Of a stretch of DNA of 47,911 bases, positions 1,161 to 40,302 are shown piece after piece (the stretch's first letter is position 1; each line of letters starts with the position of its first letter). The stretch lies in contig JAFSIW010000054.1 of the NCBI GenBank assembly GCA_017439545.1, positions 1 to 47,911 on the forward strand, given 5' to 3'. The stretch is from Clostridia bacterium. Lineage in GTDB: Bacteria > Bacillota > Clostridia > Oscillospirales > Acutalibacteraceae. The notes beneath the pieces were generated by a model. The model ran no database searches. It was not told the origin of the DNA and worked only from the letters and a program-made list of their open reading frames with translations. A program made the position numbers and the translations under genes.

Positions 1161-4100
1161 TTATTGTTCCACGGGGAATTTGTCGATCTTACCAACGACC
1201 TTTTTGAGAATATTAAGGGCATCGGTAGCTTCGATTTTCCCGTTACCGTCGGTGTCGGCGGCTTTTTGTTGATCATCGGTAAGAGTGACCTTACCCACCA
1301 CATTTTTCAGCACTTCCAGCGCGTCGGTGGCTTCTACCTTGCCGTTACCATCTACGTCGCCGTAGATAACGGTGGGAGTGGGAGGAACGGGAGGTTCTTC
1401 ACCGTTTTTATATGCGTCAAAAGCAGTGCGGGCGTCGGTCAGTTTATCCAGGTTTTGGATGGTATCTTTGACCGATTCGCCGTATTCTGTCACCAGATCG
1501 GCAACCTTTTGTTCTGCGCAAACAATGGGCGCCTCTTTTCCGGCGTGGTTTTCGGCAGTCACTTCACCAATGGCATCAATGGCATCCATCACCGCTTGCA
1601 CGTCTTGTTCCCGCCGGACGGCTTTCAGACGGGTGACCTCTTCACGGGCTTTGATCATATCGGCGGCATTGGTAACCTCTTGCATAATGTCGTTGCCGTA
1701 TTTGATCATCAGCGCATCCGCCAGTTCTTCGGCATGGATGAGGATGGGTTCTTTTTCCTTAAAGTTATCCAAGGCGATTTCGCCAATGGCATCGATGGCA
1801 TCGATGACCGCCTTCACGTCTTCGGCTTGCTTGGCGGCATCTCCTGCGTTGTACATACGAATGTTGTCGATTTTGATGTCGGTCAGGGGGGAGGAATTGT
1901 TCAGATTCCACCAAGTGTAACGGAGCTTGTTGATTTTGGACCAATCGAACTCTACCACTTTAAACCCTGCCAGATCGGTGGAGTAGGTGGCGGTGTGCCA
2001 ACCAGCGGTTTTATTGTCGATGGTGATCAAGGTGTTGTAGCCGTCTTCACCGGTGGTGGCAAAGTTTAGTTGAATCTGACCTTGCTTGCCGGTCATATCA
2101 GCCCCGATATAATAATCAAAGGCAAGGGTGTCGTAACCCGACAGATCCGCCGAGGTGGGGAAGGTCAGCATCGCCATAGCCCCAACGTAGTGGGTGTCGC
2201 TGAGTTTTTGGTTACCGCCTTTCAAAACCAAAGCAGCAGAGCCTTGTACTTGGTTTTGCTTGTCCAAAGCCAGCGAGGTGCTGTATGCACCGCTCCAACC
2301 ATAGGTATTTTCGCATTCATTGACGTACAGCACGCCGTTCTTTTCGTAAGGCATTTTGACCACTCGACCGTCAATGTCGGGCATTTTGCTTTCAAAAGAA
2401 GAAATGTCGGCATAAGGAATGGTCTTGAACCAATTCTCAATGAAGGGAGTGAGAATATCGTAGCCTTTCTTGTTGGGGTGACCTGCATCCGCCATATTCA
2501 CCAGCGTATGGGCTTGCAGAGCGTTGGTTACCCCATCGTCAGCATACATATCGTAGCAAGAAACCTTCCATTTAGCGCAGATCTTAAGGGCAATATCGTG
2601 ATAAACCCCCATATCCGATGAGGCGCTGGGCAGTTTAAAGTTGATGATATAACCCAAGCGGGCATTGGGGAAGTATTGGTAAGCGGAATAGAACAGGTGT
2701 TCCAAAGCCCCTGCAAAGGTGGCCAGATTAAAGTCATCGGGGTTGTAAGAGTCGGTCATCACGCCAATGGGAGCATTATCCCAAGAGTCGTTGATCCCGC
2801 CCTGCATAATGACGTAGTCGTAGGGATTGTCTTTGTTCTTTTGCAGCATTTGCACAATTTGCGCGCCGCGAATGGTAGAAATAGACCAACCGCTGCAGGA
2901 TTGGTTGTGAGAGATAATACCCATACTGTCCGCCAATCGACCTGCCCAGGAATAGCCTTGGGGGGTGTCGTTGTGACCGTAAGAAATGGAGTCACCAACG
3001 AAAATGGCACGTTTGTTGGTAAAGGGTTTGGCTTTGTAGGTGGCATTGTCTACCATGCGGGACATCCAGTCGCCGATGTAGGGTGCCAGATTGTCATACC
3101 CCGTGGGATTGGGATGCAGGGGATCTCGCAGACAGTTATAGGTGGTGACCTGCATTAAATCGTTGGAAACATAGCGATCGTTGTACAGATCCAAGCATTG
3201 CACGCCCCATTTTTGGCAGATTTCCACCGCCAGATTGTAGTAAGCGCTCATATCACCGGTGGCACCTAAATTTTGGGTTGCGCCCAAGGGAGTGGCAAAG
3301 GTGGTCATAAAGCCGATCTTGGCATCGGGGAAGTACTCAAAAGCATAGTAGAACAGTTCTTCCAAACCGCCGGCAAAGGTGGAGGTATCGAAGTCGCTCA
3401 GGTTAAACGAGGCGGTCATTTTACCTACGGGAGCGGCGGTGGTGGTAGCAAGATCGCCCCAACCGTCGTTGGTGCCTCCTTGCAGAATGACGTAATCATA
3501 TTGATTGTCTTTGTTGTTGTGCAGTTGGGTTACAATGCGGCCTTCCCGCACGGTGGAGATGGTGGTGCCGCCAACGCCTGCGTTGGTAACGTTGCCCATC
3601 CCGTACCGGGTGGCAATACGACCTGCCCAACCTTGACGGGGTTCGTTATCCCATTGACCGTAGCAGATGGAGTCACCTACAAACAGAGCGGTTTTTCCGT
3701 ACAGAGAGTTGGTAGGATCCACAGGTTGTTCACCGCCTTGTTCGTGATCGCCGCCGGAGGAAAGGTTGAAAAATGCGTTGTATTCGGCAACGCCAAAGGG
3801 TTGGTTTTTGGTGTAAAGGTATTTGGTTTTGTAGTTTGCGTCCACCACCATACGAATGGCGGCAACGCCTGCAGGAGCGGTGTAAGACATAATGGAGGTG
3901 GCATCATCCAGCTTGTGCTGAATGGTCAGAGCATCGTTAATGCTGGCTTGGGAAGTGACCGTACCTGCGCTGTTCAAGGTGATGAGATGAAAGCCTTGGG
4001 TAGAAACCGCCGCACCAAAGGTGATCACGTCCCCTTGAGCAACGGAGATAGGCGCCAAGGTGATGAATCCGGGGCCGCTCACCTGATTGCCTGCTCCGTC

Positions 4101-4646
4101 AATGTAGCCTTGGAAGGCATTGGCTTCGTTGTAGAGGTTGATCAGCTCCCCGTCGGCAGGGGTGTCAGAGGCGGCGTTAAAAAAGGCAGCGTGTTGCGCG
4201 GCAGTAAAGGGTTGGTTTTTGGTGACCAGATATTGATTCAGATAGCGGGCGTCGGCTACCATACGAAGGTATGCGCCACCGCTGGGAATGGTGTAGGACA
4301 TAATGGAAGTGACGCTGTCCAAGGTGGCAACCGCGGTAATGCCTTGGCTGAGAGAGCCCAAAGCAATGGCATTTTTTGCAGAATTATATACCACCAAATG
4401 CCAGCCTTGACCGGTGACCGCCGCACCGAAGGTGATCACGTCACCTGAGGCAACAGGGATGTAGTGGGAGGTGCGGAACGCACCGTCGGGACTGCTGGTG
4501 GTGTCGTTGACCCAACCGACGGTTAATTGGTTTAGGTCAAACAAATTATTGAGGGTGGTGTCGGCTGAGGCAGGCAAGACAACAAGACTTGTCAGCAGGG
4601 CAACAACCATCATCAGGGAAAGAAGGGACTTTGCCAAAGATTTCAT
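1161..4646 (-). CDS. Secreted tandem SGNH hydrolase with C-terminal dockerin
   Basis: 1161-residue exported enzyme, probably removing acyl groups from a polysaccharide. Order of parts: signal peptide 1-28; two copies of an unrecognised domain of about 120 residues (34-157 and 168-294); first SGNH hydrolase 315-535 with GDS (Ser326), GTND (Asn393) and DPLH (His511); second SGNH hydrolase 545-745 with GDS (Ser553), GGIND (Asn619) and His723; a beta-rich carbohydrate-binding-like region 775-935; two helical repeats each containing VMDAIDAIGE or a near copy (937-1080); a Pro linker; a type I dockerin 1093-1158 with two Ca-binding loops (DVDGNGKVEATDAL and DTDGNGKIEATDAL). The start at 4646 follows GGAGGAGTT; an upstream in-frame ATG would add 24 residues before the signal peptide. 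It is divergent from an AraC regulator carrying the same domain as 34-157. Substrate is unknown. Confidence 0.88.
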   Translation of the reverse strand: MKSLAKSLLSLMMVVALLTSLVVLPASADTTLNNLFDLNQLTVGWVNDTTSSPDGAFRTSHYIPVASGDVITFGAAVTGQGWHLVVYNSAKNAIALGSLSQGITAVATLDSVTSIMSYTIPSGGAYLRMVADARYLNQYLVTKNQPFTAAQHAAFFNAASDTPADGELINLYNEANAFQGYIDGAGNQVSGPGFITLAPISVAQGDVITFGAAVSTQGFHLITLNSAGTVTSQASINDALTIQHKLDDATSIMSYTAPAGVAAIRMVVDANYKTKYLYTKNQPFGVAEYNAFFNLSSGGDHEQGGEQPVDPTNSLYGKTALFVGDSICYGQWDNEPRQGWAGRIATRYGMGNVTNAGVGGTTISTVREGRIVTQLHNNKDNQYDYVILQGGTNDGWGDLATTTAAPVGKMTASFNLSDFDTSTFAGGLEELFYYAFEYFPDAKIGFMTTFATPLGATQNLGATGDMSAYYNLAVEICQKWGVQCLDLYNDRYVSNDLMQVTTYNCLRDPLHPNPTGYDNLAPYIGDWMSRMVDNATYKAKPFTNKRAIFVGDSISYGHNDTPQGYSWAGRLADSMGIISHNQSCSGWSISTIRGAQIVQMLQKNKDNPYDYVIMQGGINDSWDNAPIGVMTDSYNPDDFNLATFAGALEHLFYSAYQYFPNARLGYIINFKLPSASSDMGVYHDIALKICAKWKVSCYDMYADDGVTNALQAHTLVNMADAGHPNKKGYDILTPFIENWFKTIPYADISSFESKMPDIDGRVVKMPYEKNGVLYVNECENTYGWSGAYSTSLALDKQNQVQGSAALVLKGGNQKLSDTHYVGAMAMLTFPTSADLSGYDTLAFDYYIGADMTGKQGQIQLNFATTGEDGYNTLITIDNKTAGWHTATYSTDLAGFKVVEFDWSKINKLRYTWWNLNNSSPLTDIKIDNIRMYNAGDAAKQAEDVKAVIDAIDAIGEIALDNFKEKEPILIHAEELADALMIKYGNDIMQEVTNAADMIKAREEVTRLKAVRREQDVQAVMDAIDAIGEVTAENHAGKEAPIVCAEQKVADLVTEYGESVKDTIQNLDKLTDARTAFDAYKNGEEPPVPPTPTVIYGDVDGNGKVEATDALEVLKNVVGKVTLTDDQQKAADTDGNGKIEATDALNILKKVVGKIDKFPVEQ

Positions 4647-4717
4647 AATAACTCCTCCATCTTTCAATTTGGACAAAAACCCAAATAGGCTTGTAAGTGG
4701 GCTTTTATTATGATACA

Positions 4718-4746
4718 ATGATATCAGATAAAAAAGGGGTTTTCAA
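4718..4746 (-). promoter_or_regulatory. Promoter of the double SGNH hydrolase gene
   Basis: Minus-strand TTGAAA (4746-4741), a 17-base spacer and TATCAT (4723-4718) lie in the 151-bp region shared with the divergent AraC gene. This is where the AraC protein would be expected to bind. Confidence 0.5.
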
Positions 4747-4797
4747 TGTATAAAACATACGAATTCTTGGACATTTTTAACATTTGGAGGGATAACC

Positions 4798-5931
4798 GTG
4801 TATTATATTACCCAATCGTTACAAATCAACGACAATCTGTTTGATCTGTCAGCCGTTACGTTGGGATGGGTGGATCATCGTTCTTCTCGCAATGACTTTG
4901 GTTTTTTAACGGGGGATTATATTGCTGTTTCCGCGGGGGATGTGATCACCTTTGGGGGTGCGGTCACCACCCAAGGGTGGCATTTGGTAACTTATGACCG
5001 CCATCGTCAGCCCCTTGAGACAGTTACCATCAATAACGGGATTACGGTGTTTGGGCAGTTAAACCAAGAATTGTCCATTATGCAATACGTTGTGCCCTAT
5101 GGAGTGGCATCCATCCGCCCTGTGGTCGACAGTCGATTCAGCCACTGTTTTGTGCTCACCCGCAACAAGGAGTTTACGGCGGAGCAGTATCGCTCGTGGA
5201 TGACCGATGCCCAAGGCGGGTTTTCCTTTAACGGTCAGCAGGTCAATCGGGACGGGGTTACGTTGCTTCTCAATTTAGAGGGAGCGGGCTCGGTGATGAT
5301 AGAAGGGGAGAGCATTCCTTTTGAAGCGGGCACGGTGCTGTGTATTCCGCCCCACACCCTTTTTTATAAGGTGAGCAATACGGGGTTTCGGGATATTCGG
5401 TTGGCGTGTCATAAATTTGGTACAAACGGCACGCAGGTAACCCTGCTCAAAGACGATCCCTCTCAAAGCATCGAAGCGCTGATGCGGTTAATGCTGCGGA
5501 TGTTTTGGGATCCGCTGGCAGGGGACGAGCGGATCTTGCAGCAGTTGTTTACCACGGTGGAGCAGATCGTGCAGTATCGCTTGGAGGAACAACAGCCCCG
5601 TCGCAGTCAGGTAAAACGGATGTTAGCGGCCATGCAAACCGACTTCACCGATCCCGATTTTACGCTGGAGCGGGTGTTTTGCAACGAGGGGTATTGCCCC
5701 AATCATTTGCGGCGGCTGTTTAAAGAAGAAACCGACTGCACACCGCTGGAATATCTGATCCGCTTGCGATTGCATCACGCCAAACGGCTGATGGCGCAAA
5801 ACAAAGAACTGCACGCATCGGTGGCGCAGATCGCCTTGATGAGCGGCTTTCGGGATCCTTGTTATTTTTCACGGATTTTTAAGAAAAAAGAGGGAATTTC
5901 TCCTGCACAATATATGAAAAGCAAGATTTAA
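4798..5931 (+). CDS. AraC-family regulator with an extra N-terminal domain shared with the divergent esterase
   Basis: 377-residue cytoplasmic regulator; no signal peptide. Residues 12-135 form a domain also found twice in the divergently encoded secreted SGNH hydrolase. My ungapped hand alignment with its first copy gives 54 identities in 120 positions, including GDVITFG and QGWHLV. Residues 150-205 look like the cupin-type sensor of AraC proteins (a short beta series with IPPHTLFY). Residues 272-375 are the double helix-turn-helix AraC domain, with the typical FSRIFKKKEGISPAQY end. A GTG start at 4798 is set by GGAGG at 4786-4790. It probably controls the divergent esterase and uses the shared domain as a ligand sensor; that is inference. 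Confidence 0.87.
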   Translation: MYYITQSLQINDNLFDLSAVTLGWVDHRSSRNDFGFLTGDYIAVSAGDVITFGGAVTTQGWHLVTYDRHRQPLETVTINNGITVFGQLNQELSIMQYVVPYGVASIRPVVDSRFSHCFVLTRNKEFTAEQYRSWMTDAQGGFSFNGQQVNRDGVTLLLNLEGAGSVMIEGESIPFEAGTVLCIPPHTLFYKVSNTGFRDIRLACHKFGTNGTQVTLLKDDPSQSIEALMRLMLRMFWDPLAGDERILQQLFTTVEQIVQYRLEEQQPRRSQVKRMLAAMQTDFTDPDFTLERVFCNEGYCPNHLRRLFKEETDCTPLEYLIRLRLHHAKRLMAQNKELHASVAQIALMSGFRDPCYFSRIFKKKEGISPAQYMKSKI

Positions 5932-5943
5932 CAAAAATTTTAT

Positions 5944-5972
5944 TTGACTTTTATCGGTTGAACGCATAGAAT
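5944..5972 (+). promoter_or_regulatory. Promoter of the 87-residue protein gene
   Basis: TTGACT (5944-5949), a 17-base spacer and TAGAAT (5967-5972), followed 25 bases later by AAGGAGAAA and the ATG at 6007. Confidence 0.7.
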
Positions 5973-6006
5973 AGATACGGAAAATTACAAAAGGAGAAAT
6001 TGTACT

Positions 6007-6270
6007 ATGCAAAACGATCAAATGACGCTGCACGATATTGACGTGGCAGATTTTATGAAAACGCTGGATTCCTGCAAGGGCGACGTGTATCTGGAAACCG
6101 CCGAGGGGGACGTGCTGAATCTGCGTTCCAAGCTGTGCTTGCTGATGGGTCTGGAAAATATTCTGAGAGGCGCAGTAATTTCCGAAGCCACCATTCGTTG
6201 CACCCGACCCGAAGACGAAGAATTGCTGTTCCGTTTCAATCTGTTTAAAGAGGTTCCCACCAAGGAATAA
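6007..6270 (+). CDS. Small acidic protein of unknown function
   Basis: 87-residue soluble acidic protein with its own promoter, an AGGAG ribosome site and a downstream terminator, so it is very likely expressed. I do not recognise the family with confidence. Visible features are an amphipathic N-terminal half (DIDVADFMKTLDSCKGDVYL), a SKLCLLMGLENIL helix and an acidic turn PEDEELLFRFNLF. Two cysteines lie in positions not suggestive of a metal site. It has no signal peptide and no membrane segment. It stands alone between the AraC gene and the convergent secF. Confidence 0.75.
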   Translation: MQNDQMTLHDIDVADFMKTLDSCKGDVYLETAEGDVLNLRSKLCLLMGLENILRGAVISEATIRCTRPEDEELLFRFNLFKEVPTKE

Positions 6271-7788: not shown

Positions 7789-9202
7789 TCTTCACACCTC
7801 CGTATAAAACAGGATTGCGCAGGGCTTTAAAGCGGGATACGCCTTTGAGCATCAAGCGAGAAGCGGCTACGCCGAAGATGAAGTTGAAGATTACACCAAT
7901 CAGCAGGGTGTAGCCGAAGGAGTAGATGGAGCCGGTAATGGTATTGGCGATTGCCAAACCGGGAATCAGACCGACGGTGTGGTTGTAAACCCACATAAAG
8001 GGCCACAGAATCTTTGCCCAGATGCTGCTGTACGGTCCGAAAATACCCATCAGAATAATGGCGATGATCACGTTGGTTACGTTACCGTCCAGAATAGCGG
8101 AGAAGGCGCTGGAGAAACCGGCATCAATGGCGCCGTCCAGTGTCTTTTTGTTGTAGCGCAGTTCTTCTTTGATCCGCTCGGCGGTAATTACGTTGGAGTC
8201 AACGCCCATACCGATGGAAAGAATGATACCAGCAATACCGGGAATGGTGAGGGTAAAGCTGTCGGCACCGGCAAAGAAGCCGCTGGTGCAGGCAATGATA
8301 CCCGCGATCTGCCCCAGCACGGCAATGGCGGCGATCACACCGGGAACACGGTATTTGATGATCATCAGAATGGCAATCAGTGCAAAGGCGATAATACCTG
8401 CCAGCAGCATAACCTGCAGAGAGCGTTCGCCCATGGTGGGGTTGATCACACGAATGGTGTCGTCTACCTTCAAGGCGAAGGGCAGAGCACCGGCGTTGAT
8501 TTTTTCAGAAACCTCTTCTACGTATTCCAGCGTCATATCCTGACCGGAAATAATGGCTTGTCCGTTTTCGATTACCTCGTTCACTTTTGCATCAGACAGC
8601 ATTTCATCATCCAACCAAATGGAGATGTTGCTGTTGAGATACGTTTTGGTAGCGGCGGCAAATTTAGATTTACCGGCATCGGTCAGTTGCAATTGAATGA
8701 CGTAGCCCTGTTGTTCGTTGTAACCGGGGGCGGCGCTTTCAACGTCAGCCGCACCCTGCAACAGGGGCGTGCCGGTTTTTTCACTGCCGGCATAGAACGA
8801 AACCATAGCGGTTTCACCCAATTCCCGCACGGCTTCGGCGGGATCGTAGTCGGTTTCTTCCGACTGCCAGGGGAACCGAACGATGATCTGTTTGTTTTCA
8901 TTGTCGGTGTAAACTTCACTGTCGGTGATGTTTTTGTTGACCAGACGGGTGTTGATAATGGTTTCGGCATTGGCCATATCCTCCGAGGTGATGGTATCGA
9001 ATTCTTCCTCGGTTACATCAGGGGTAAAAATGGCTTCCACGCCGCCCTGAATGTCAATGCCCCAACGAATATCGGCGGCACCCTTTACATAGATCTTTTC
9101 GGTATCGCCGTAATAGTTGCTTACCCCAAAGAAGGACAAGTAGGCGAAAACAAAGACCAGCAGGGCGACCACAATAAACGTGATTTTTCCTGAACGCTTC
9201 AT
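7781..9202 (-). CDS. secD: Protein translocase subunit SecD
   Basis: 473-residue partner of SecF. TM1 is at about 8-27, followed by the extracytoplasmic P1 region with DIRWGIDIQGGVEAIFTPD (the SecD D1-type motif), then five membrane segments containing GIAGIILSIGMGVDSNVIT and AERIKEELR. The start used is the ATG at 9202, eight bases after GGAGG (9215-9211). An ATG two codons upstream is only two bases from it. First gene of the secDF operon, with a strong promoter upstream. Length is normal for Clostridial SecD. Confidence 0.94.
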   Translation of the reverse strand: MKRSGKITFIVVALLVFVFAYLSFFGVSNYYGDTEKIYVKGAADIRWGIDIQGGVEAIFTPDVTEEEFDTITSEDMANAETIINTRLVNKNITDSEVYTDNENKQIIVRFPWQSEETDYDPAEAVRELGETAMVSFYAGSEKTGTPLLQGAADVESAAPGYNEQQGYVIQLQLTDAGKSKFAAATKTYLNSNISIWLDDEMLSDAKVNEVIENGQAIISGQDMTLEYVEEVSEKINAGALPFALKVDDTIRVINPTMGERSLQVMLLAGIIAFALIAILMIIKYRVPGVIAAIAVLGQIAGIIACTSGFFAGADSFTLTIPGIAGIILSIGMGVDSNVITAERIKEELRYNKKTLDGAIDAGFSSAFSAILDGNVTNVIIAIILMGIFGPYSSIWAKILWPFMWVYNHTVGLIPGLAIANTITGSIYSFGYTLLIGVIFNFIFGVAASRLMLKGVSRFKALRNPVLYGGVKND

Positions 9203-9256
9203 TGGCATTCCCTCCAATATTATTTGTATACAGTTACCTGCATACCGATAAAAAAC

Positions 9257-9285
9257 ATTATAGTATAAAACGGTGGAAAAGTCAA
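9257..9285 (-). promoter_or_regulatory. Promoter of the secDF operon
   Basis: Minus-strand TTGACT (9285-9280), a 17-base spacer and TATAAT (9262-9257). Confidence 0.78.
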
Positions 9286-9305
9286 TCGAAAAAGGGCAAA
9301 TAAAT

Positions 9306-9338
9306 CCAAAAGGCGGGAAGGTATATACCATCCCGCCC
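9306..9338 (-). terminator. Terminator of the VanY-type gene
   Basis: Stem GGCGGGATGGTAT/ATACCTTCCCGCC on the minus strand, one mismatch, followed by TTTTGG, just after the carboxypeptidase stop. Confidence 0.7.
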
Positions 9339-9348
9339 GAATATCGGA

Positions 9349-10263
9349 TTATTGTCCGCCGTTTTGCAGATAGGTTACGTATTCTTCCAAACAGTAACCC
9401 AGTTCATTGATGCGCTTGGCGTGCTTTACGCCCACAAAGCGATAATGCCACGGCTCCCAGGTAACGCCGGTGAAATTTTGCTTATCTTTTTCATATCGCA
9501 AAATAAACCCGTAGTCCTCAGAATTTTCTTTCAGCCATTTCCCTGCCTTGGTGTCCCCAAAACTGGTTTCCACACTGTTAAAGTCGATGGCCAATCCCGA
9601 TTGGTGCTCGCTGGTGCCCGGACGGGCAACGTGAGTAGCGGCATAAGCCTCGGCCTGTGCTTGAGTAAAGGAAGGATTTTCCCGCTTGGCGCGGTCTACC
9701 CGATTGTTGTACAGCCGTTGCTGGGTGGAATAAGAGCGATAGCCCGAAATGGCATAGATGGTAACCCCATCTGCCGAAGCGGCGTTGCACATATCCCGAT
9801 AGGCTTTTACAATGCGGGAATCCAGTTGTTCTCCGCCCACGTCGGTCATATCGGTCTTCCAGTTACCGTCCAGCGTGCTGTTGCCGTTGATCAGCCGCAG
9901 ATACCATTCGTCCAGTTCTTCGGCACCGCTTTTGGTATAGGTTATGTAGTCACCCTCAGGTGCGCTTTCACGGGAGGTGTCGGAAGAATCCTTCGATGCA
10001 TCGGAAGCGACCGAAGCATCCTTGGATTCGGCGGGCTGCAGCTGGTCCACCAGCGACGGTGTGGGACGGCTGGGTGTGTTTTCCACCGAGGAGTCGGACA
10101 CGTCGGTTTGGGTAACGTCATCGTCAAACAGCTTGGTAACCCCTTGAACGCCCTTTACAATACCCAATACCACAAGGCAAATCAAAATGACGCCGATAAT
10201 ATAAATGGCAAATTCCAATTTACGACCACCTTTGTTGTTTTTACGTTTTTTTGCAGAGGCCAT
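9349..10263 (-). CDS. Membrane-anchored D-alanyl-D-alanine carboxypeptidase, M15/VanY family
   Basis: 304-residue enzyme that trims D-Ala from peptidoglycan stem peptides outside the membrane. A basic N-terminus precedes one membrane segment (about 17-40), then a Ser/Asp/Thr-rich linker (about 50-105), then the catalytic domain. Zn-site motifs are visible: SGYRSYSTQQ, GTSEHQSGLAIDF (His and Asp ligands) and EPWHYRF (His ligand and catalytic Glu). The ATG follows GGAGGGTACTT. It is complete and of ordinary length for this family. Whether it acts on tetra- or pentapeptides cannot be read from sequence. Confidence 0.9.
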   Translation of the reverse strand: MASAKKRKNNKGGRKLEFAIYIIGVILICLVVLGIVKGVQGVTKLFDDDVTQTDVSDSSVENTPSRPTPSLVDQLQPAESKDASVASDASKDSSDTSRESAPEGDYITYTKSGAEELDEWYLRLINGNSTLDGNWKTDMTDVGGEQLDSRIVKAYRDMCNAASADGVTIYAISGYRSYSTQQRLYNNRVDRAKRENPSFTQAQAEAYAATHVARPGTSEHQSGLAIDFNSVETSFGDTKAGKWLKENSEDYGFILRYEKDKQNFTGVTWEPWHYRFVGVKHAKRINELGYCLEEYVTYLQNGGQ

Positions 10264-10337: not shown

Positions 10338-11873
10338 TTATTCGGCAATCAGACTTTCGCCGGTCATTTCTTTGGGTTGCGGGATGGCTAAGATCTTCAG
10401 CATGGTGGGAGAAATGTCAGCCAAACGGCCGCCTTCCCGCAGTTTGCAATCCAACCCTACCACCGCAAAAGGTACGGGATAGGTGGTGTGAGCGGTAAAG
10501 GGAGTGCCGTCATCTTCTGCCATGTAGTCGGCGTTGCCGTGGTCGGCGGTAATCAGGGCGATGCCGCCCATTTTGTTTACCGATTCCACCACCTTGCCCA
10601 CGCAGGTGTCTACGGTTTCTACGGCTTTCACAGCGGCATCAAACACACCGGTGTGACCAACCATGTCGCAGTTGGCGAAGTTCAGAATCACCGCATCGTA
10701 TTTGCCGCTTTCAATGGCTTCGCATACTGCTTCACATACGGGAGGAGCGCTCATTTCGGGCATCAGGTCAAAGGTGGAAACGTCGGGAGTAGGAATCAGA
10801 ATACGATCTTCCCCTTCGAATTTTACCTCTTCGCCACCGTTGTAGAAGAAGGTAACGTGAGCGTATTTGGTGGTTTCGGCGATCCGCAATTGGGTTTTGC
10901 CTGCTTTGCTCAGGGTTTCGCCCATGGTCATGGTGAGGGCTTCGGGAGCAAATGCCACCTGCACGTTTGGCATGGTAGCATCGTATTCGGTCATGCAAAC
11001 GTAGGTAAGGGGGAAGCAACCCTTTGTCCGTTCAAATCCGTCAAAGGCGGGGTCCACAAAGGCACGGGTGATTTCACGGGCGCGGTCGGGACGGAAGTTG
11101 AAGAATACCACAGCGTCATTTTCTTCCACGTTACCGTCGTCAGTAAACACGGTGGGAATAACGAATTCGTCGGTTAAGAACTTGCCGTCTTCATCTTTGG
11201 TTTCGTAAGAGGCTTGTACGGCGGCAACGGGATCAGTAGCACGGATGCCTTCGCCCAATACCATGGCATCGTAGGCTTTTTTCACACGAGTCCATTGGGT
11301 ATCACGGTCCATCCCGTAGTAACGACCGGCAATGGTAGCCAGCTTACCTACGCCGATCTCGTCCATTTTGGCAATGGCTTCGGCCACGTAATCTTTACCC
11401 GAGGCAGGGGGAACGTCACGACCGTCTAACAGACCGTGAACGAATACCTTGTCAAGGCCCATCCGCTTTGCCATTTTAAGCAAAGCCCACAAATGGGTGT
11501 TGTGGCTATGTACCCCGCCGTCAGACAGCAAGCCCAACAGATGCAGTTTGGTACCCTTTTGCTTGCAGGATTCCATAGCGGCCTTCAGGGTTTTGTTTTC
11601 AAAAAAGTCCCCGTCTTGAATGGATTTGGTGATGCGGGTCAGTTCCTGATATACCACACGACCTGCGCCGATGTTGGTATGACCCACCTCGCTGTTGCCC
11701 ATTTGCCCGTCGGGCAAGCCAACGTCCATGCCCGAAGCACCGATCTTGGTGGTGGGGCAGGTGGCGAAGATCTTGTCCAAATTGGGGGTGGAAGCGGCGG
11801 CAATGGCATTGTTTTTATCGCTGGGGTTCATACCGAAACCGTCCATAATTACTAAAACAACCGGTTTTTTCAT
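10338..11873 (-). CDS. gpmI: 2,3-bisphosphoglycerate-independent phosphoglycerate mutase
   Basis: 511-residue cytoplasmic enzyme converting 3-phosphoglycerate to 2-phosphoglycerate with Mn2+. The alkaline-phosphatase-type metal sites are seen at the N-terminus (VIMDGFG) and near the C-terminus (ITADHGNAD, AHTTYPVPF). The phosphoserine is in GQMGNSEVGHTNIGAGR. Last gene of the pgk-tpiA-gpmI operon, 14 bases after tpiA, preceded by AGGAGATTT. Normal family length. Confidence 0.97.
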   Translation of the reverse strand: MKKPVVLVIMDGFGMNPSDKNNAIAAASTPNLDKIFATCPTTKIGASGMDVGLPDGQMGNSEVGHTNIGAGRVVYQELTRITKSIQDGDFFENKTLKAAMESCKQKGTKLHLLGLLSDGGVHSHNTHLWALLKMAKRMGLDKVFVHGLLDGRDVPPASGKDYVAEAIAKMDEIGVGKLATIAGRYYGMDRDTQWTRVKKAYDAMVLGEGIRATDPVAAVQASYETKDEDGKFLTDEFVIPTVFTDDGNVEENDAVVFFNFRPDRAREITRAFVDPAFDGFERTKGCFPLTYVCMTEYDATMPNVQVAFAPEALTMTMGETLSKAGKTQLRIAETTKYAHVTFFYNGGEEVKFEGEDRILIPTPDVSTFDLMPEMSAPPVCEAVCEAIESGKYDAVILNFANCDMVGHTGVFDAAVKAVETVDTCVGKVVESVNKMGGIALITADHGNADYMAEDDGTPFTAHTTYPVPFAVVGLDCKLREGGRLADISPTMLKILAIPQPKEMTGESLIAE

Positions 11874-11887
11874 AGTCGTAAATCTCC

Positions 11888-12655
11888 TTATTTAGAAGCG
11901 GCTTTCACAATAGCGGCAAAGTCGGGGGCTTTCAGCGAAGCACCGCCGATCAAACCGCCGTCTACGTGTTCCATGGCAACCAGTTCATCGGCATTTTTGG
12001 CATTCATAGAGCCGCCGTATTGAACGGTGACGGTTTCGGCAACCGCTTTGCCGTATACTTCGGCAATGGCTTCACGCACGTAGCCGTTGCCTTGGTTGGC
12101 TTGGTCAGCCGTAGCGGTAACGCCGGTGCCGATGGCCCATACAGGCTCGTAAGCAATGATGATATTCTTCAGTTGATCGGCAGAGATGTTGGTGAGTGCC
12201 ATTTTGGTTTGGAATTTTAAGAGAGTTTCGGTGTAGCCCAATTCCCGTTGCTCCAAGGTTTCGCCCACGCAAACGATGGCGGTCAGACCGGCATTCACAG
12301 CAGCCAAGGTGCGCAGGTTGACGGTTTGGTCGGTTTCACCGAAATATTGACGGCGTTCACTGTGACCCACAACCACGTATTTTACACCGGATTCGATCAG
12401 CATTTGGGCAGAAACTTCGCCGGTGTAAGCGCCGCTTTCTTTAAAGTGCACGTTTTCAGCGCCGATTTCAATGTTAGAGCCTTTGGCGGCTTCCACAGCG
12501 GCGGGGATATCAATAAACGGTACGCACAATACCACTTTGCAGTCGGCATCGGCTACCAAAGGTTTCATTTCGTTGATCAGAGCGGTGGTTTCGGCAGGGG
12601 TTTTGTTCATTTTCCAGTTGCCGGCAATCACGGCAGAACGGACAGCTTTGTTCAT
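11888..12655 (-). CDS. tpiA: Triosephosphate isomerase
   Basis: 255-residue TIM-barrel enzyme interconverting dihydroxyacetone phosphate and glyceraldehyde 3-phosphate. Landmarks are AGNWKMNKT (Asn and Lys of the active site), VVGHSERRQYFGE (catalytic His), AYEPVWAIGTG (catalytic Glu, start of flexible loop 6) and YGGSMNAKNADEL (phosphate site). It is complete, and its start follows AGAGGAATGAACT. It lies between pgk and gpmI in the same operon; a hairpin separates it from pgk. Confidence 0.97.
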   Translation of the reverse strand: MNKAVRSAVIAGNWKMNKTPAETTALINEMKPLVADADCKVVLCVPFIDIPAAVEAAKGSNIEIGAENVHFKESGAYTGEVSAQMLIESGVKYVVVGHSERRQYFGETDQTVNLRTLAAVNAGLTAIVCVGETLEQRELGYTETLLKFQTKMALTNISADQLKNIIIAYEPVWAIGTGVTATADQANQGNGYVREAIAEVYGKAVAETVTVQYGGSMNAKNADELVAMEHVDGGLIGGASLKAPDFAAIVKAASK

Positions 12656-12686
12656 AGTTCATTCCTCTTTCTAAAACATAGATTTG

Positions 12687-12711
12687 GGCGGTCAACCCGA
12701 CCGCCCAAGCA
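12687..12711. other. Intercistronic stem-loop between pgk and tpiA
   Basis: Ten-bp inverted repeat TTGGGCGGTC/GACCGCCCAA with a 5-base loop and no T-run. It may protect or process the 3' end of the pgk message rather than terminate it. Confidence 0.55.
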
Positions 12712-12722
12712 AAGTGCAATTC

Positions 12723-13916
12723 TTATTTATCGTTGAGAGCGGCAATACCGGGCAGTTCTTTTCCTTCTAAGAATTCCAGAGAAGCACCGCCGCCGGTGGA
12801 GATGTGGGTCATCTTATCGGCAAAGCCCAATTTTTGAACGGCGGCTACCGAGTCGCCACCGCCGATGATGGAGATGGAATCGGATTCAGCCACGGCTTTG
12901 GCAACCGAAATGGTACCGGATGCAAAACGATCCCATTCCGAAACACCCATCGGTCCGTTCCAGATCACGGTGCGGGCGCCTTTAACAGCGTTGGCAAACA
13001 GTTCTTCCGAGCGGGGACCGATGTCCAGACCCATGTAACCGTCGGGAATACCGTCTTCTACGTTGGCAATGATCATATCGCAATCGGGATCGTATTTGTC
13101 GCCGCAGCGGCTGTCCAGAGGCAGCAAGAAGTTTACGCCTTTTTCTTTGGCCAATTTTACAATGTCGTTGGCAAGATCAAATTTGTCGGTTTCGCAAAGA
13201 GAAGTACCGATGGGCTCGCCTGCGGCGGCTTTGAAGGTGTAAGCCATAGCACCGCCGATGATGAGGGTGTCAACTTTGTTCAGCAGGTTTTCGATAACGC
13301 CGATCTTGTCGGAAACTTTGGCGCCGCCCAGAATGGCAACGAAGGGACGAGCGGGATCAGCCAAGGCTTTGCCCATAACGTCGATTTCTTTTTGAATCAG
13401 ATAACCGCAAACGGCAGGCAGATAATCAGCCACACCGGTGGTGGAGGAGTGAGCGCGGTGAGCAGTACCGAAGGCGTCGTTCACGTAGATTTCGGCAAGG
13501 TCAGCCAAGGCTTTGGAGAAAGCAGGATCGTTCTTGGTTTCTTCAGCGTGATAGCGCACGTTTTCAATGAGAACGGCTTCCCCTTCTTTTACGTTGGCGG
13601 CCAATTCTTTGGCGGATTCGCCGATTACGTCGGTAGCCATTTTTACTTCAAAGCCCAGATGCTCGCTCAAGCGTTTGGCAACGGGAGCCAGAGAAAATTC
13701 GGGTTTGAATTCGCCCTTGGGACGACCCAAGTGAGAGCAGAGGATAACCTTTGCTTTATTGTCCAACAAATATTTGATGGTGGGCAAAGAAGAAACAATG
13801 CGTTTTTCGTTGGTGATCTCGCCGTCTTTCAGCGGCACGTTGAAGTCGCAACGAACAAGCACGCGCTTGCCGGCAACGTCAATATCTTCAATGGTTTTTT
13901 TGTTGAGAGCATTCAT
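12723..13916 (-). CDS. pgk: Phosphoglycerate kinase
   Basis: 397-residue glycolytic kinase making ATP from 1,3-bisphosphoglycerate. Seen: [21 protein letters not shown], the Arg-containing [22 protein letters not shown] and the nucleotide-site [13 protein letters not shown]. The start at 13916 is fixed by GGAGGTTATCAT. An in-frame ATG 33 codons upstream would add a nonhomologous extension and is rejected. First gene of the pgk-tpiA-gpmI operon with a near-consensus promoter. No gapA is in the window. Confidence 0.97.
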
Positions 13917-14802: not shown

Positions 14803-16347
14803 TTAATCGTTGATCACAAAATCATAAAATGGCATGTAATATTCGTCCAATTCGGATTGGAATTGTCTGACGATTCGTTGCATGGGAGTTTCACCGGTTA
14901 CCATAGCGGGAACGGGTGCCGACGCTAATTGTTCAAGGCTTACCACACCCACAGAGTAATCCAACGTCGCTTTGTTTGGCAAATCCGCCACGTGCTGTGC
15001 CGAGGTTTCATCCAACCCCTTTTGCAGATATTGTTGTTTTACCTGCTGTTTCACATAGGGATTCAACAGTTGCAGTTGAGTCGCCAAAGCAATTGCGGCA
15101 GAGGCTTTTTCCTCTTTGCCTTTGGGTACCGAGAACACTGTGCCGGCGACGGTTTGGTAACTGTCGTTTTCTGCTTTCACCATGGGAATAAACCCTACCT
15201 CAAAATCGGCGTTGCCTAAAATTTGGTCGCTATAACTTACGTATCCTGCAAACAGTAAGGCTTGACCTTCGGTAAAAGCTTCCATGCATTGGGCGGTGTC
15301 CGCTTTATACAACCAGGATTTGTCGGTTTTCATCATTTCCTGCAAGGTAAGATAAGGAGCGGTTTCCAGTTGAGCGGAAATATTTTCTTTCACATATACG
15401 GCAGGTTTTTCCACACCCGTTTCGTTGTTGTATTCCAAACAGGATAAGCCACCGCCTGCCACAAATGCCATTTCCAACAGTTGTACATTGGCGGTTATGC
15501 CGTAAAGGTTGGGGTTACCGTCTTGGTCGGTGTCTTTCGTAGCCAAAGCGGTTAATTCCCGCAAGGTGGCAAAATCCCATTTGCCTTCGGCATATAATGC
15601 GTTTAAATCATAGTCGGGGGCGACTTGGTTGAGCAGGGTCTTGTTATAAAAGATCCCTTGCATACCGCCTTCACGCAGTTCGAAGCCCACACCGTAAAGA
15701 TACTGACCAAATCCAGTGGCACGGGTCGGGATTTCGCGGCTTAATTGATTGGGTAAGCCTTGTAAATTCACCAGATATCCTTCTCGTCCCATGTTGCGGG
15801 CAAACGCATAATTCAGTTCCAATACGTCAGCAGTTTCTTGTGACGATTGCAGGTCGCTTTGCACCGAATCCCCTTGGGGGACAATGGTTAAGGCCATGCC
15901 GTATTGTTGCTCTAATTTGTCTATGAATGAAGCATACGGCTCGGTACGGTAACGGTCGGCAAAAAAAGTTTTCAAGGTCAGGTTTTGTCCGTATAAGCCT
16001 GCATCCGCAGGGAAACGGTCAATTTTGCCTACTACTTTTTGCAGGATTTGTAAAGCGTCTGCGGCATTGATGTGACCGTCACCGTCTACGTCGGCGGCAA
16101 TGCCCGCTCCCGGCGCATCGTTATAACGGTCATGCGGATCAAAAGAAATTTTACCCACACAAGATTTTAATACTCGAAGGGCATCGTCAGCACCAATGTT
16201 GCCGTTGCGACTTACATCCCCCATGATAACAGGGGTGGTGGCAAGGTCGTTTTCAACCGGCGGAGTGTTGCTTTCGGTCTGCGCCGCGGCGGTCATAGGG
16301 GTAAGCAGCAGGGTAAGGGTGAGTAGTACAGCAATCCATTGTTTCAT
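14803..16347 (-). CDS. Secreted dockerin-solute-binding protein fusion (second of pair)
   Basis: 514 residues. Signal peptide 1-22 (MKQWIAVLLTLTLLLTPMTA) has no lipobox Cys, so it is released rather than lipid-anchored. Residues 40-112 are a type I dockerin with two Ca loops (GDVSRNGNIGADDAL, ADVDGDGHINAADAL) ending KVVGKIDRFPA. The rest (about 118-514) is a family 1 extracellular solute-binding domain: a GIFYNKTLL strand, a KWDFATLRELTALATKDTDQ segment, and ADFEVGFIPMV followed by FSVPKGKEEKASA. The first dockerin loop has Ser-Arg in place of Asn-Gly. It follows a paralogue 35 bases upstream in one operon. No ABC permease genes are adjacent. Ligand unknown, probably a glycan. Confidence 0.85.
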   Translation of the reverse strand: MKQWIAVLLTLTLLLTPMTAAAQTESNTPPVENDLATTPVIMGDVSRNGNIGADDALRVLKSCVGKISFDPHDRYNDAPGAGIAADVDGDGHINAADALQILQKVVGKIDRFPADAGLYGQNLTLKTFFADRYRTEPYASFIDKLEQQYGMALTIVPQGDSVQSDLQSSQETADVLELNYAFARNMGREGYLVNLQGLPNQLSREIPTRATGFGQYLYGVGFELREGGMQGIFYNKTLLNQVAPDYDLNALYAEGKWDFATLRELTALATKDTDQDGNPNLYGITANVQLLEMAFVAGGGLSCLEYNNETGVEKPAVYVKENISAQLETAPYLTLQEMMKTDKSWLYKADTAQCMEAFTEGQALLFAGYVSYSDQILGNADFEVGFIPMVKAENDSYQTVAGTVFSVPKGKEEKASAAIALATQLQLLNPYVKQQVKQQYLQKGLDETSAQHVADLPNKATLDYSVGVVSLEQLASAPVPAMVTGETPMQRIVRQFQSELDEYYMPFYDFVIND

Positions 16348-16382: not shown

Positions 16383-17945
16383 TTATTCATAAAACGGTGC
16401 GTAGTAATCGTCTGCTTCTTTTTGGGCTTTGGCTCTGATTGTTTCCCAATTCTTAGTCGGCGTGCCGCTAATATAGACGTCAAATTCAGAGGTTACCGCG
16501 GAAGAAAACACACCCGAAGAAAATTCGGCCGAACTGTTTTTCGCCAGATTTTTATAGTTTTGAATGCTCTGTTCATCCAATCCCAAAGCGGTCCATTCTT
16601 GTTGGACGTTTGCCAGCACCTCGTCTTCCAAAGGCATCATCTGCTCCAAAAAAGCGCAGACCTTGTTGACCGAAGCGGCGGAGTTTTTGGGAATGACGTA
16701 CACCCGGGTGTCATATACAGCGTTGATGTAGTTGCTTTGTTGGGGACCCATGGGCATGGGAGCAAATCCGATTTCAAAATCGGCGGCTTCGGCAATTTGG
16801 GGAACAAATCGGGTATAAGACAAAAACATTCCTGCTTTGCCGTTGACAAACTGATTGATACAATTGTTAATATCTGCCTTGTACAACCAGGATTTGTCGG
16901 TTCTGAACATCGCTTTGCACCATTCCAGTGCGTCAACCCCTGCTTGACTGCAAAAAGACGCTTCCACTCTGCCGTTTTTCAGCAGCGCAGTGCCGCCTAC
17001 GTTAGCGGCGCAGGCCATACCGGATACGTTGGTGTTGGAGGTAAAGCCGTAAATATCGGTTTTGCTGTTGCCGTCGGTGTCGGTGATCAGCGATGCAGAC
17101 AAGGAACGGAAGGCATCAAAATTCCACTGATTGGTTGCCACCAGAGAAGCAATGTCCACGTCGGGGGCGTATTTGGCAATCAGATCCTTGTTGTATACCA
17201 CACCGAGCATGGTTTGGGTAGTATTTAAACTGACCCCCGCTAAGTGATTGTTGATGGTCACCGACTGGGTACTGCCGTTGGCTTTTAACCGCCGCCGCAA
17301 GGGGGCGTCTATTAAATTCAAACTGCCGCCTGCACGGTAAATATTGCGAGCCATTACCAAACTTACTTCTACCACGTCGGCTTGGGGAATTCCCGCCAGC
17401 GCGTTTTTCACAATGGTCTCGGTGGCCTGACTGGCTTCAAGGGCCTCCACACGGAAGGCTGTGCCGTGATCGGCTTGCATTTGTTGCAGTTTTGCGGCCA
17501 GCAAGGAGCCCGATTGCGAATCGTATTCTTCTGCCCACACCGATTGCAGCCAAATCTCCTTGTTTTCCAATTCTTCGGTCATAGGCTCGGCGGGGAAACG
17601 GTCTATTTTGCCCACCACTCGTTTGAGAATATACAAGGCATCGGTTGCGGTGATATTTTCATCATCGTCCACGTTGGCAATGGTTTTGTCAATGGTGGGC
17701 TTTGACGGTTTGGCAGTAACATCGGTGGGACTTTCCTCTTCTACGGGGAATTGAGGAGGATGACGGTGGGTGATATAGCACAATACTGCCAGAGCATCAT
17801 CTGCGCCGATTTTGCCGTCACCGTTTACGTCCCCCACGAGAATAGGGACAATGGGTTGGGGTTGGGTTGATTGTTCTTGTGCCGTAGCGGTCATAGGGGT
17901 AAGCAGCAGGGTAAGGGTGAGTAATACAGCGATCCATTGTTTCAT
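16383..17945 (-). CDS. Secreted dockerin-solute-binding protein fusion (first of pair)
   Basis: 520 residues, paralogue of the downstream gene. The first 20 residues of the signal peptide are identical in both, and again there is no lipobox. Dockerin repeats at about 35-55 (GDVNGDGKIGADDAL) and 105-130 (ANVDDDENITATDAL) are separated by an unusually long insert rich in Pro, Thr and Lys. The solute-binding domain follows: GVVYNKDLI, NQWNFDAFRSLSASLITDTDG, ADFEIGFAPMPMG, VYVIPKNSAASVNK. An N-terminal dockerin on a binding protein is unusual. The gene has its own promoter, facing the DUF5058 operon across a region with four 11-bp repeats. Confidence 0.85.
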   Translation of the reverse strand: MKQWIAVLLTLTLLLTPMTATAQEQSTQPQPIVPILVGDVNGDGKIGADDALAVLCYITHRHPPQFPVEEESPTDVTAKPSKPTIDKTIANVDDDENITATDALYILKRVVGKIDRFPAEPMTEELENKEIWLQSVWAEEYDSQSGSLLAAKLQQMQADHGTAFRVEALEASQATETIVKNALAGIPQADVVEVSLVMARNIYRAGGSLNLIDAPLRRRLKANGSTQSVTINNHLAGVSLNTTQTMLGVVYNKDLIAKYAPDVDIASLVATNQWNFDAFRSLSASLITDTDGNSKTDIYGFTSNTNVSGMACAANVGGTALLKNGRVEASFCSQAGVDALEWCKAMFRTDKSWLYKADINNCINQFVNGKAGMFLSYTRFVPQIAEAADFEIGFAPMPMGPQQSNYINAVYDTRVYVIPKNSAASVNKVCAFLEQMMPLEDEVLANVQQEWTALGLDEQSIQNYKNLAKNSSAEFSSGVFSSAVTSEFDVYISGTPTKNWETIRAKAQKEADDYYAPFYE

Positions 17946-39096: not shown

Positions 39097-40203
39097 TTAT
39101 AAAAGCTCGATGGGAAATTTTTCGATTTTAATGACTGTGTGTTTCAAAATCAGCAAAGCATCTTCTGCTCCGATGGTGTTGTCGTTGCTTACTTTAGCGG
39201 CTGTTCTTTGGTCAGCATCCAAAGTGATTTTTCCTACTACACTTTTTAGCACTTCCAAGGCGTCTACAGCATTTACCATCGTGTCTCCGTTCACGTCACC
39301 GGGTTTGAGCTCGGGAGATTCCACGTATTCTCCCGCCGGTTTGGTGGCGTCTACCACGGTGTAGCGGCTGAAACCGTTGGTTTCCAGCACAATATAATTT
39401 TCCCGCACAATGATGTTCATTTCGGTTTTGTTGCCTTTTTCATCCTGATGGAACACTTGTACCTTTTCGGGATCAAAGTTATCGGGCAAGGGTAACCGAA
39501 CGGTTACATCTTTCTCGGGTTGCAGGGCGGTTTCACCATCTATAAAGCCGATGTCATAATCCAATTTCTGACCATCGGTACCGTGCAGGCGGGTAACAAA
39601 ATCGCCCTTGTTAATGGAGTCATCACGAGTGGTAATGGCTTCAATACCGGTGCGTTCATTGGTGTGATAGGTGTTTTGCGGCACATAATCGGTTCCCATT
39701 ACGCCGCCCGAAAGAATTTGGGTGGAGGTGTAAATGTCGCCATCGTCGCAATGGATAACCGTTTCCATAAATTCACCGGAAAGCTCTACCAAATGACCGG
39801 CGGGAATATCACGAATTACACGAAAACGAATGGTTAAGAACAATCCGTCGTTTTGAACCCCTTTCCAACAAGCCATGGCAAATTTCATGTTCTTTTCGTT
39901 GGAAGCATATGCGAATCCGTGTTCTTCGTAATTGTAGGGACAATCAAAAAACAGGTTCATTGAATTGGACGGATTCAAAAGGGGTACGATTTCCAAATAG
40001 GTTTCATCATAGTCGAACTGAATGGAAAGGGCGCCGATATAGGTGTTTTTTTCTTGTAAGTTGAGATGGACCTCCACAAAGTCGTTTTCTTCTACCGTGT
40101 CAAAGGCAAAGGTGACGGTTTTGGCTTGTTGGGCGGCTACCGAAAGGGAAGCCGTTGCCAAAATTGCCAAGGCAAGGGTTAGTGCGAATAGTTTTTTTAA
40201 CAT
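39097..40203 (-). CDS. Secreted cohesin-like plus dockerin protein
   Basis: 368 residues. Signal peptide 1-24. Residues 27-160 look like a cohesin-type beta-sandwich: VEVHLNLQEKNTYIGALSIQFDYDETYLEI and LTIRFRVIRDIPAG are typical. A second beta domain (about 190-290) has GIEAITTRDDSINKG and ENYIVLETNGFSRYTVVD. The C-terminal dockerin (302-368) has a good first loop (GDVNGDTMVNAVDAL), but the second (KVSNDNTIGAEDAL) has lost its first Asp. The start at 40203 follows AAGGAGTGTTATG; an upstream ATG would add 14 residues. A scaffold or adaptor role is inferred; cohesin assignment is moderate. Confidence 0.75.
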   Translation of the reverse strand: MLKKLFALTLALAILATASLSVAAQQAKTVTFAFDTVEENDFVEVHLNLQEKNTYIGALSIQFDYDETYLEIVPLLNPSNSMNLFFDCPYNYEEHGFAYASNEKNMKFAMACWKGVQNDGLFLTIRFRVIRDIPAGHLVELSGEFMETVIHCDDGDIYTSTQILSGGVMGTDYVPQNTYHTNERTGIEAITTRDDSINKGDFVTRLHGTDGQKLDYDIGFIDGETALQPEKDVTVRLPLPDNFDPEKVQVFHQDEKGNKTEMNIIVRENYIVLETNGFSRYTVVDATKPAGEYVESPELKPGDVNGDTMVNAVDALEVLKSVVGKITLDADQRTAAKVSNDNTIGAEDALLILKHTVIKIEKFPIELL

Positions 40204-40302
40204 ACCATAACACTCCTTTTTTTGATGTAATGATTCGGGGTTCATCTATTAAACTGTTCAAAGTGGTTTTTTTCTCACAGAAATTTCAATTTTTTCATTA
40301 TT

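Follow-up and report, generated by a model that had tools for sequence, protein, structure and literature searches.

A regulator that carries a recognition module of enzyme type has its closest described precedent in the RsgI anti-sigma factors of Clostridium thermocellum, which regulate cellulosomal genes and whose enzyme-type polysaccharide-binding modules include, as far as the accessible text of that paper goes, CBM3, a PA14 pair, CBM42 and even a GH10 domain (PMC4711584). In the available portion of a review of hemicellulase regulation, RsgI appears in the title of a reference only, and AraC proteins are mentioned alongside hybrid two-component systems and as activators predicted chiefly for pectinase genes (PMC10766802). 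The CE2 acetyl esterases, according to the part of the text to hand, have an N-terminal jelly roll before the SGNH domain (PMC9487903). A literature search covering mostly open-access journals listed no paper on an AraC protein with an accessory domain of an enzyme. Among AraC/XylS regulators a divergently transcribed target gene is usual.

The locus considered here has such a divergent layout. It lies in a window (the whole stretch of DNA that was analysed, 47,911 nucleotides) from a genome, G000, that is 87% complete, and it pairs the gene of an AraC-family regulator with that of a secreted, dockerin-bearing double SGNH hydrolase, both products having a domain of about 130 residues in common (Table 1).

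Table 1. Features of the regulator-hydrolase pair, in coordinates of the window
Feature	Coordinates	Strand	Basis or remark
Secreted double SGNH hydrolase, two domain copies and dockerin	1161..4646	-	1161 aa, ATG at 4646
Type I dockerin of the enzyme	1200..1364	-	5.7e-11
SGNH domain 2 (residues 543-737)	2436..3020	-	Catalytic blocks, own SGNH profile
SGNH domain 1 (residues 316-525)	3072..3701	-	Pfam, catalytic blocks, own SGNH profile (built partly from this domain)
Enzyme domain copy 2	3744..4142	-	Alignment, own-genome search, profile
Enzyme domain copy 1	4164..4550	-	Alignment, own-genome search, profile
Shared intergenic region	4647..4797		151 bases; overlapping divergent sigma-70-like promoters
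Conserved element AATTTGGACAAAA, possible operator half	4666..4678	+	Identical at matching offset in G004
Sigma-70-like promoters	4746..4718 (minus), 4691..4719 (plus)		Consensus only
Conserved element TTGGACATTTT, possible operator half	4767..4777	+	Recurs in G004 at matching offset
AraC-family regulator with extra N-terminal domain	4798..5931	+	377 aa; HTH_18 3.2e-21 at 299-374
Shared domain in AraC protein (residues 12-141)	4831..5220	+	Alignment, shuffles; profile match 9.0e-56 (profile includes this copy itself)
AraC core (residues 144-377), weak cupin-like part and HTH	5227..5928	+	Aligns with domain-less AraC paralogues

The regulator gene starts at a GTG preceded by GGAGGG. Its product has a C-terminal AraC-type HTH (HTH_18, 75.8 bits against a cut-off of 33.6), and its middle part matches AraC_binding (15.1 bits, cut-off 21.1) and Cupin_2 (15.7 bits, cut-off 27.2), both below the cut-off. 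By hydropathy it has neither a signal peptide nor a membrane stretch (19-residue maximum 1.14), and across the three fusions of this kind described below the same maximum is 1.14-1.19, with no membrane segment. The facing gene was taken from its ATG, the 1185-aa frame from the TTG at 4718 being the mechanical open reading frame, and the N-terminus of the enzyme is signal-like (19-residue maximum 2.47). Lipase_GDSL_2 matches the enzyme at 5.2e-33 over two stretches, the GDSI, GGxND and HPN blocks occur in both SGNH domains, and the second of these domains, together with the part downstream of it, aligns to an SGNH paralogue that is apparently cytosolic; the enzyme is probably a carbohydrate esterase. 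Since the genome has 86 dockerin matches (85 above cut-off) and two cohesins above cut-off among three matches, the host is regarded as a dockerin-rich, cellulosome-like bacterium. The neighbours of the pair are genes that we take to be SecD/SecF-like and LytTR/DUF3021 genes, and no importer was found among them. Elsewhere in the window two adjacent genes (14803-16347 and 16383-17945, both on the minus strand) encode solute-binding proteins (SBP_bac_1), each with a dockerin near its N-terminus, a pairing that is to our knowledge unusual and by which sugar-binding proteins would be anchored on a cellulosome-like scaffold. A further minus-strand gene (39097-40245) encodes a dockerin protein in which one stretch resembles a cohesin, below cut-off, and which may be a small scaffoldin.

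Residues 12-128 of the AraC protein align without gaps to residues 33-149 of the enzyme, the first of its two copies of the domain, with 53 of 117 positions identical and a score of 277, the maximum among 1000 shuffles being 56. This reproduces almost exactly an alignment proposed in a sequence-only reading of the locus (12-135 with 34-153, ungapped, 54 identities in 120), and the motifs GDVITFG and QGWHLV, which that reading had called conserved, are both identical in the AraC protein and in enzyme copy 1. The second enzyme copy, previously placed at 168-294, extends from about 169 to 301 and aligns to the AraC domain with 47 identities in 130 columns and one gap column (score 219, shuffles no higher than 62); the two enzyme copies against each other score 253 (shuffles at most 72). 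When the genome itself was searched with the AraC domain the matches were these three places only, with E-values of 3.0e-32 and 1.7e-22 for the enzyme copies.

The sequence-only reading knew the domain as no named family, and none was found in Pfam, in NCBIfam or with profiles against the PDB. No Pfam family covers the domain in either protein, NCBIfam gave no match at all for the enzyme, and among the 25 of 34 NCBIfam matches listed for the AraC protein all begin at least as far in as residue 146. Run singly against Pfam, 32 copies of the domain gave only scattered matches, at E 0.053 or worse and with no CBM family among them, and profiles of 10 and of 32 copies found no relative in the PDB. 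One family of unknown function, phrog_11541, matches 7 of the 32 copies at E up to 1 (best 8.7e-07) and, when 10 copies were examined singly, 2 of them at E up to 0.01. A phage origin was considered and rejected, tblastn of one distant copy against phages giving no match and a scan of viral contigs with the query A1 finding no relative. Identity with CE2_N was rejected as well: none of the 32 copies matches Pfam CE2_N at E up to 1, and comparison of profiles with 17 CE2_N sequences (17 of 20 loci used) gave a probability of at most 0.33%, the positive control, between 11 and 14 of the 32 rows, giving 99.9%.

The domain occurs in four of the five genomes of the window's genus (G000, G001, G002 and G004), which are also the only four among 398 genomes of the family, one genus in 135; the corresponding figures are 8 of 394 genomes in the order, 3 of 391 in the class, where one of the three matches is weak, and 6 of 12 in the family of genome G054, each count being made at its own search's E-value limit. 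The weak match, a partial one at E 5.9e-6 in G654, lies in a protein that shows no SGNH match in the 2629 bases examined and whose translation we take to be tail-like, and it was left out of the count of frames given below. A contig scan with a single protein gave no match and a second scan with A1 gave six loci; L033 and L034, being the same RGIG3888 gene, were counted once, and the named relatives are RGIG7216 (water buffalo cecum), RGIG3888 (roe deer cecum), RUG14132 and Lapin-032. SGNH proteins are clustered at L067, L068 and L069, in G187, G124 and G388, and a single protein there has as many as five domain copies.

SGNH hydrolases are the domain's usual company. Frames around the matches of the order search, with those of G001, G002, G004 and RGIG3888, make up 24 domain-bearing frames, or 26 with the two of the window; in 23 of these the domain is followed by an SGNH hydrolase, and the remaining three are the AraC fusions. 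The profile used to detect SGNH was made from five such domains (both of the window enzyme's, those of the two paralogues and that of RGIG3888), and Pfam confirmed GDSL in the window enzyme and in all six other frames submitted. Because all 23 domain proteins examined outside the AraC fusions are SGNH hydrolases, the earlier description of the domain as borrowed by the regulator fits. Of the 28 SGNH domains found in the frames, 24 follow a domain copy at a distance of 2-20 residues and four are second SGNH domains, 240-254 residues off, so that the domain may be an integral part of the hydrolase and not a free binding module. An objection raised along with the original claim, namely that this is a common structural module, is therefore answered in part: the domain is rare and hence not common, whereas its tight placement before most SGNH domains keeps the structural half of the objection alive. 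It may be that the domain serves as a structural or dimerisation module in both proteins, that the cupin-like part of the regulator senses the ligand, and that the domain carries no information about a polymer. The tight junction with the SGNH domain fits such a role and the tandem copies in the enzymes would fit self-association; we consider it unlikely on the whole, and it is the main rival to fragment sensing.

The fusion is present in three of the five genomes of the genus (G000, G002 and G004), and the contention that a regulator and the secreted enzyme it faces share a domain is borne out by the same layout in all three, the AraC gene being divergent each time from a domain-bearing double-SGNH enzyme. 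In G002 the fusion (L015 6483-7655, minus strand) is divergent from a one-copy enzyme (7841-10114, plus strand) in which a dockerin was seen by eye, and near this pair, at 3188-6103 and 11447-12925, are genes that we presume to encode a GH31-like enzyme and a serpin-like protein, both with dockerin-like repeats. In G004 the fusion (L014) lies near a contig start, the signal-like N-terminus and first domain copy of the divergent enzyme are on the same contig, and the remainder of the enzyme is apparently on a second one. The enzyme is present with no AraC fusion detected in G001, neither was detected in G003, and in RGIG3888 a lipoprotein-like single SGNH protein has the domain with no divergent AraC gene beside it. 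Thus the divergent layout holds for every fusion, and not every domain-bearing enzyme has such a regulator. A protein at L018 3-1121 (minus strand), sugar-kinase-like (PfkB), has a C-terminus that looks AraC-type-HTH-like by eye.

G000 and G004 also have a paralogous pair (L021 2702-4839 and L020 5515-7611) in which an AraC gene is divergent from an SGNH hydrolase gene, and in both genomes the two partners gave no match to the domain when searched with a profile. The three domain-less AraC paralogues, the third of which is encoded between two large proteins that are dockerin-bearing by eye, are 33-35% identical to the core of the fusion from residue 144 on, and the paralogous hydrolases are 39-40% identical to enzyme residues 545-917; the latter are probably cytosolic, since no signal peptide is seen by hydropathy (maxima of 0.29 and 0.06 in the first 60 residues). 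This pair has a shared promoter word of its own, TTGGATTTTT. The two kinds of AraC-SGNH pair observed thus have the domain in both partners or in neither. The alignment of the fusion's core with regulators that lack the domain is in keeping with a structural role, and so, with the cupin-like part as the sensor, is the position of more distant relatives, which are divergent from what we take to be sugar isomerase-, epimerase- and kinase-like operons. However, a pure dimerisation aid would need no match to the facing enzyme, yet the domain is distributed over the two kinds of pair as just described, and the cupin-like part, besides matching Cupin_2 only below cut-off, is among the least conserved parts of the fusion.

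Pairwise identities between the three fusions (in the order G000-G002, G000-G004, G002-G004) are 41, 46 and 49% in the domain, 26, 29 and 30% in the linker and cupin part, 28, 53 and 24% in residues 226-275, lower than the cupin part in one of the three pairs, and 50, 61 and 44% in the HTH. The domain, set against the linker and cupin part, thus appears to have been kept under constraint. All three AraC copies retain 11 of the 15 columns that are invariant among six enzyme copies, as well as D48, Q59, H62, R107, T121 and N123, and they have W61-H62, as is the form in the genus (with F at 61 in one enzyme copy), the commonest residues at these two positions in 23 distant copies being Y (11) and Q (11). 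Cysteine counts gave no clean division between the copies of AraC proteins and those of enzymes. In the comparison of G000 with G004, identity is 69% for the enzyme copy and 44% for the AraC copy, so that specificity may have drifted, which counts against tight matching of the two.

The position of the domain at the 5' end of both genes, next to the shared intergenic region, is as expected if an inverted duplication spanning their common promoter had given the AraC gene a copy of the enzyme gene's 5' end, which would persist with no function of its own. Such a relic is improbable, the conservation of the domain above that of the cupin part over three species arguing against neglect and the phylogenetic tests disfavouring a recent copy of the partner's domain in two of the three genomes. 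When 16 copies were placed in a tree, the nine of the genus type, RGIG3888 among them, fell into a single group with support of 96/96, inside which no branching order is resolved; a single AraC clade is not rejected (p-AU 0.27) and appears in 18-20% of bootstrap trees. Constraining an AraC copy to group with its partner gave p-AU 0.018 for G000 with its own copy 1, 0.0325 for G004 with the complete enzyme copy and 0.244 for G002 with its own enzyme copy, in five uncorrected tests that used one enzyme copy per genome. Recent copying is thus disfavoured for G000 and G004 and not for G002.

Both intergenic promoters are among five consensus matches in 4500-4900, where 0.7 would be expected. The elements AATTTGGACAAAA and TTGGACATTTT stand in direct orientation 98 bases apart and, if transcription begins 7 bases past the -10 hexamer, would lie about 54 bases upstream of the AraC start and about 61 bases upstream of the enzyme start, respectively. 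In 20000 mononucleotide shuffles, which do not allow for common descent, one collinear 11-base match arose 13 times and two such matches never; recurrence in G004 may nevertheless reflect descent, because species this close share sequence, and no exact copy of either TTGGACA element was found in G002. A longer pattern at the second site, TTGGACAWTTTWAACA, has its sole exact occurrence in G000 there. With up to two mismatches it has seven sites in the genome (one exact and six with two mismatches) against three for the reversed pattern, so that no regulon is claimed, and a shorter pattern with one mismatch has 5 matches within the window against 3.34 expected. Conservation of the TTGGACA elements in two of three species is only a hint that the AraC protein might bind the promoter.

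Substrate-fragment sensing is the simplest reading of the locus, since the regulator carries the accessory domain of its likely target enzyme. The pair would then constitute a dedicated two-gene switch: the AraC-type regulator, in the cytoplasm, would control the facing gene, which encodes the secreted double SGNH hydrolase with its dockerin, the regulator's N-terminus being the accessory domain otherwise placed before SGNH catalytic domains and acquired, we infer, within the genus from an SGNH gene. This domain would recognise a piece of the polymer, probably an acylated one, that the enzyme encounters outside. Such a fragment would enter the cell via a putative transporter, and its binding would allow the HTH core, possibly together with the cupin-like part, to work on the TTGGACA elements, whereby the enzyme gene would be switched. 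That the protein is a one-component regulator dedicated to this enzyme, and that it uses the borrowed domain to sense fragments of the enzyme's polymer after import, is a proposal from sequence comparison to which we incline tentatively, at just under even standing. That a cytoplasmic transcription factor captured the substrate-recognition domain of the exoenzyme it controls, recognition inside and outside being matched by common descent, is somewhat less likely than not. A bolder form of domain capture would have the AraC copy bind the same domain in unexported enzyme precursor and so report on secretion. The domains do occur in tandem, and enzyme copy 1, which follows the signal-like N-terminus immediately, would be the first to emerge in the cytoplasm; proteins bound for export are as a rule held unfolded there, which speaks against such binding, and we hold this secretion feedback to be very improbable.

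Should fragment sensing prove true, the inducer of an enzyme from an uncultured gut bacterium could be found via the enzyme's own domain, and the fusion would be a lead to the substrate of a hydrolase that has no assigned specificity. The locus would extend the RsgI principle to the cytosol and would illustrate how a regulator gains specificity by capture of a domain from the neighbouring target gene. The analysis also brings out a domain of some 130 residues, associated with SGNH, to which it could assign no family model.

With RsgI, to go by the accessible text, the locus shares a regulator carrying a module of kinds also found in enzymes, and RsgI provides the precedent, outside the cell, from which an analogous sensing is proposed for the AraC fusion; RsgI is, however, a membrane protein that holds its module outside and acts on a sigma factor (PMC4711584), whereas the fusion unites module and HTH in one protein with no membrane stretch, and the module is an unnamed companion of SGNH domains. 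The CE2 esterases resemble the enzyme in having an accessory domain directly before the SGNH domain, as described in the available part of the source (PMC9487903), but the domain here is distinct from CE2_N by both the single-copy and the profile comparisons given above. The AraC/XylS one-component regulators are matched in the C-terminal AraC-type HTH, which scores above its cut-off, and the fusion differs from them in having one more domain at its N-terminus, which it has in common with the secreted enzyme encoded opposite.
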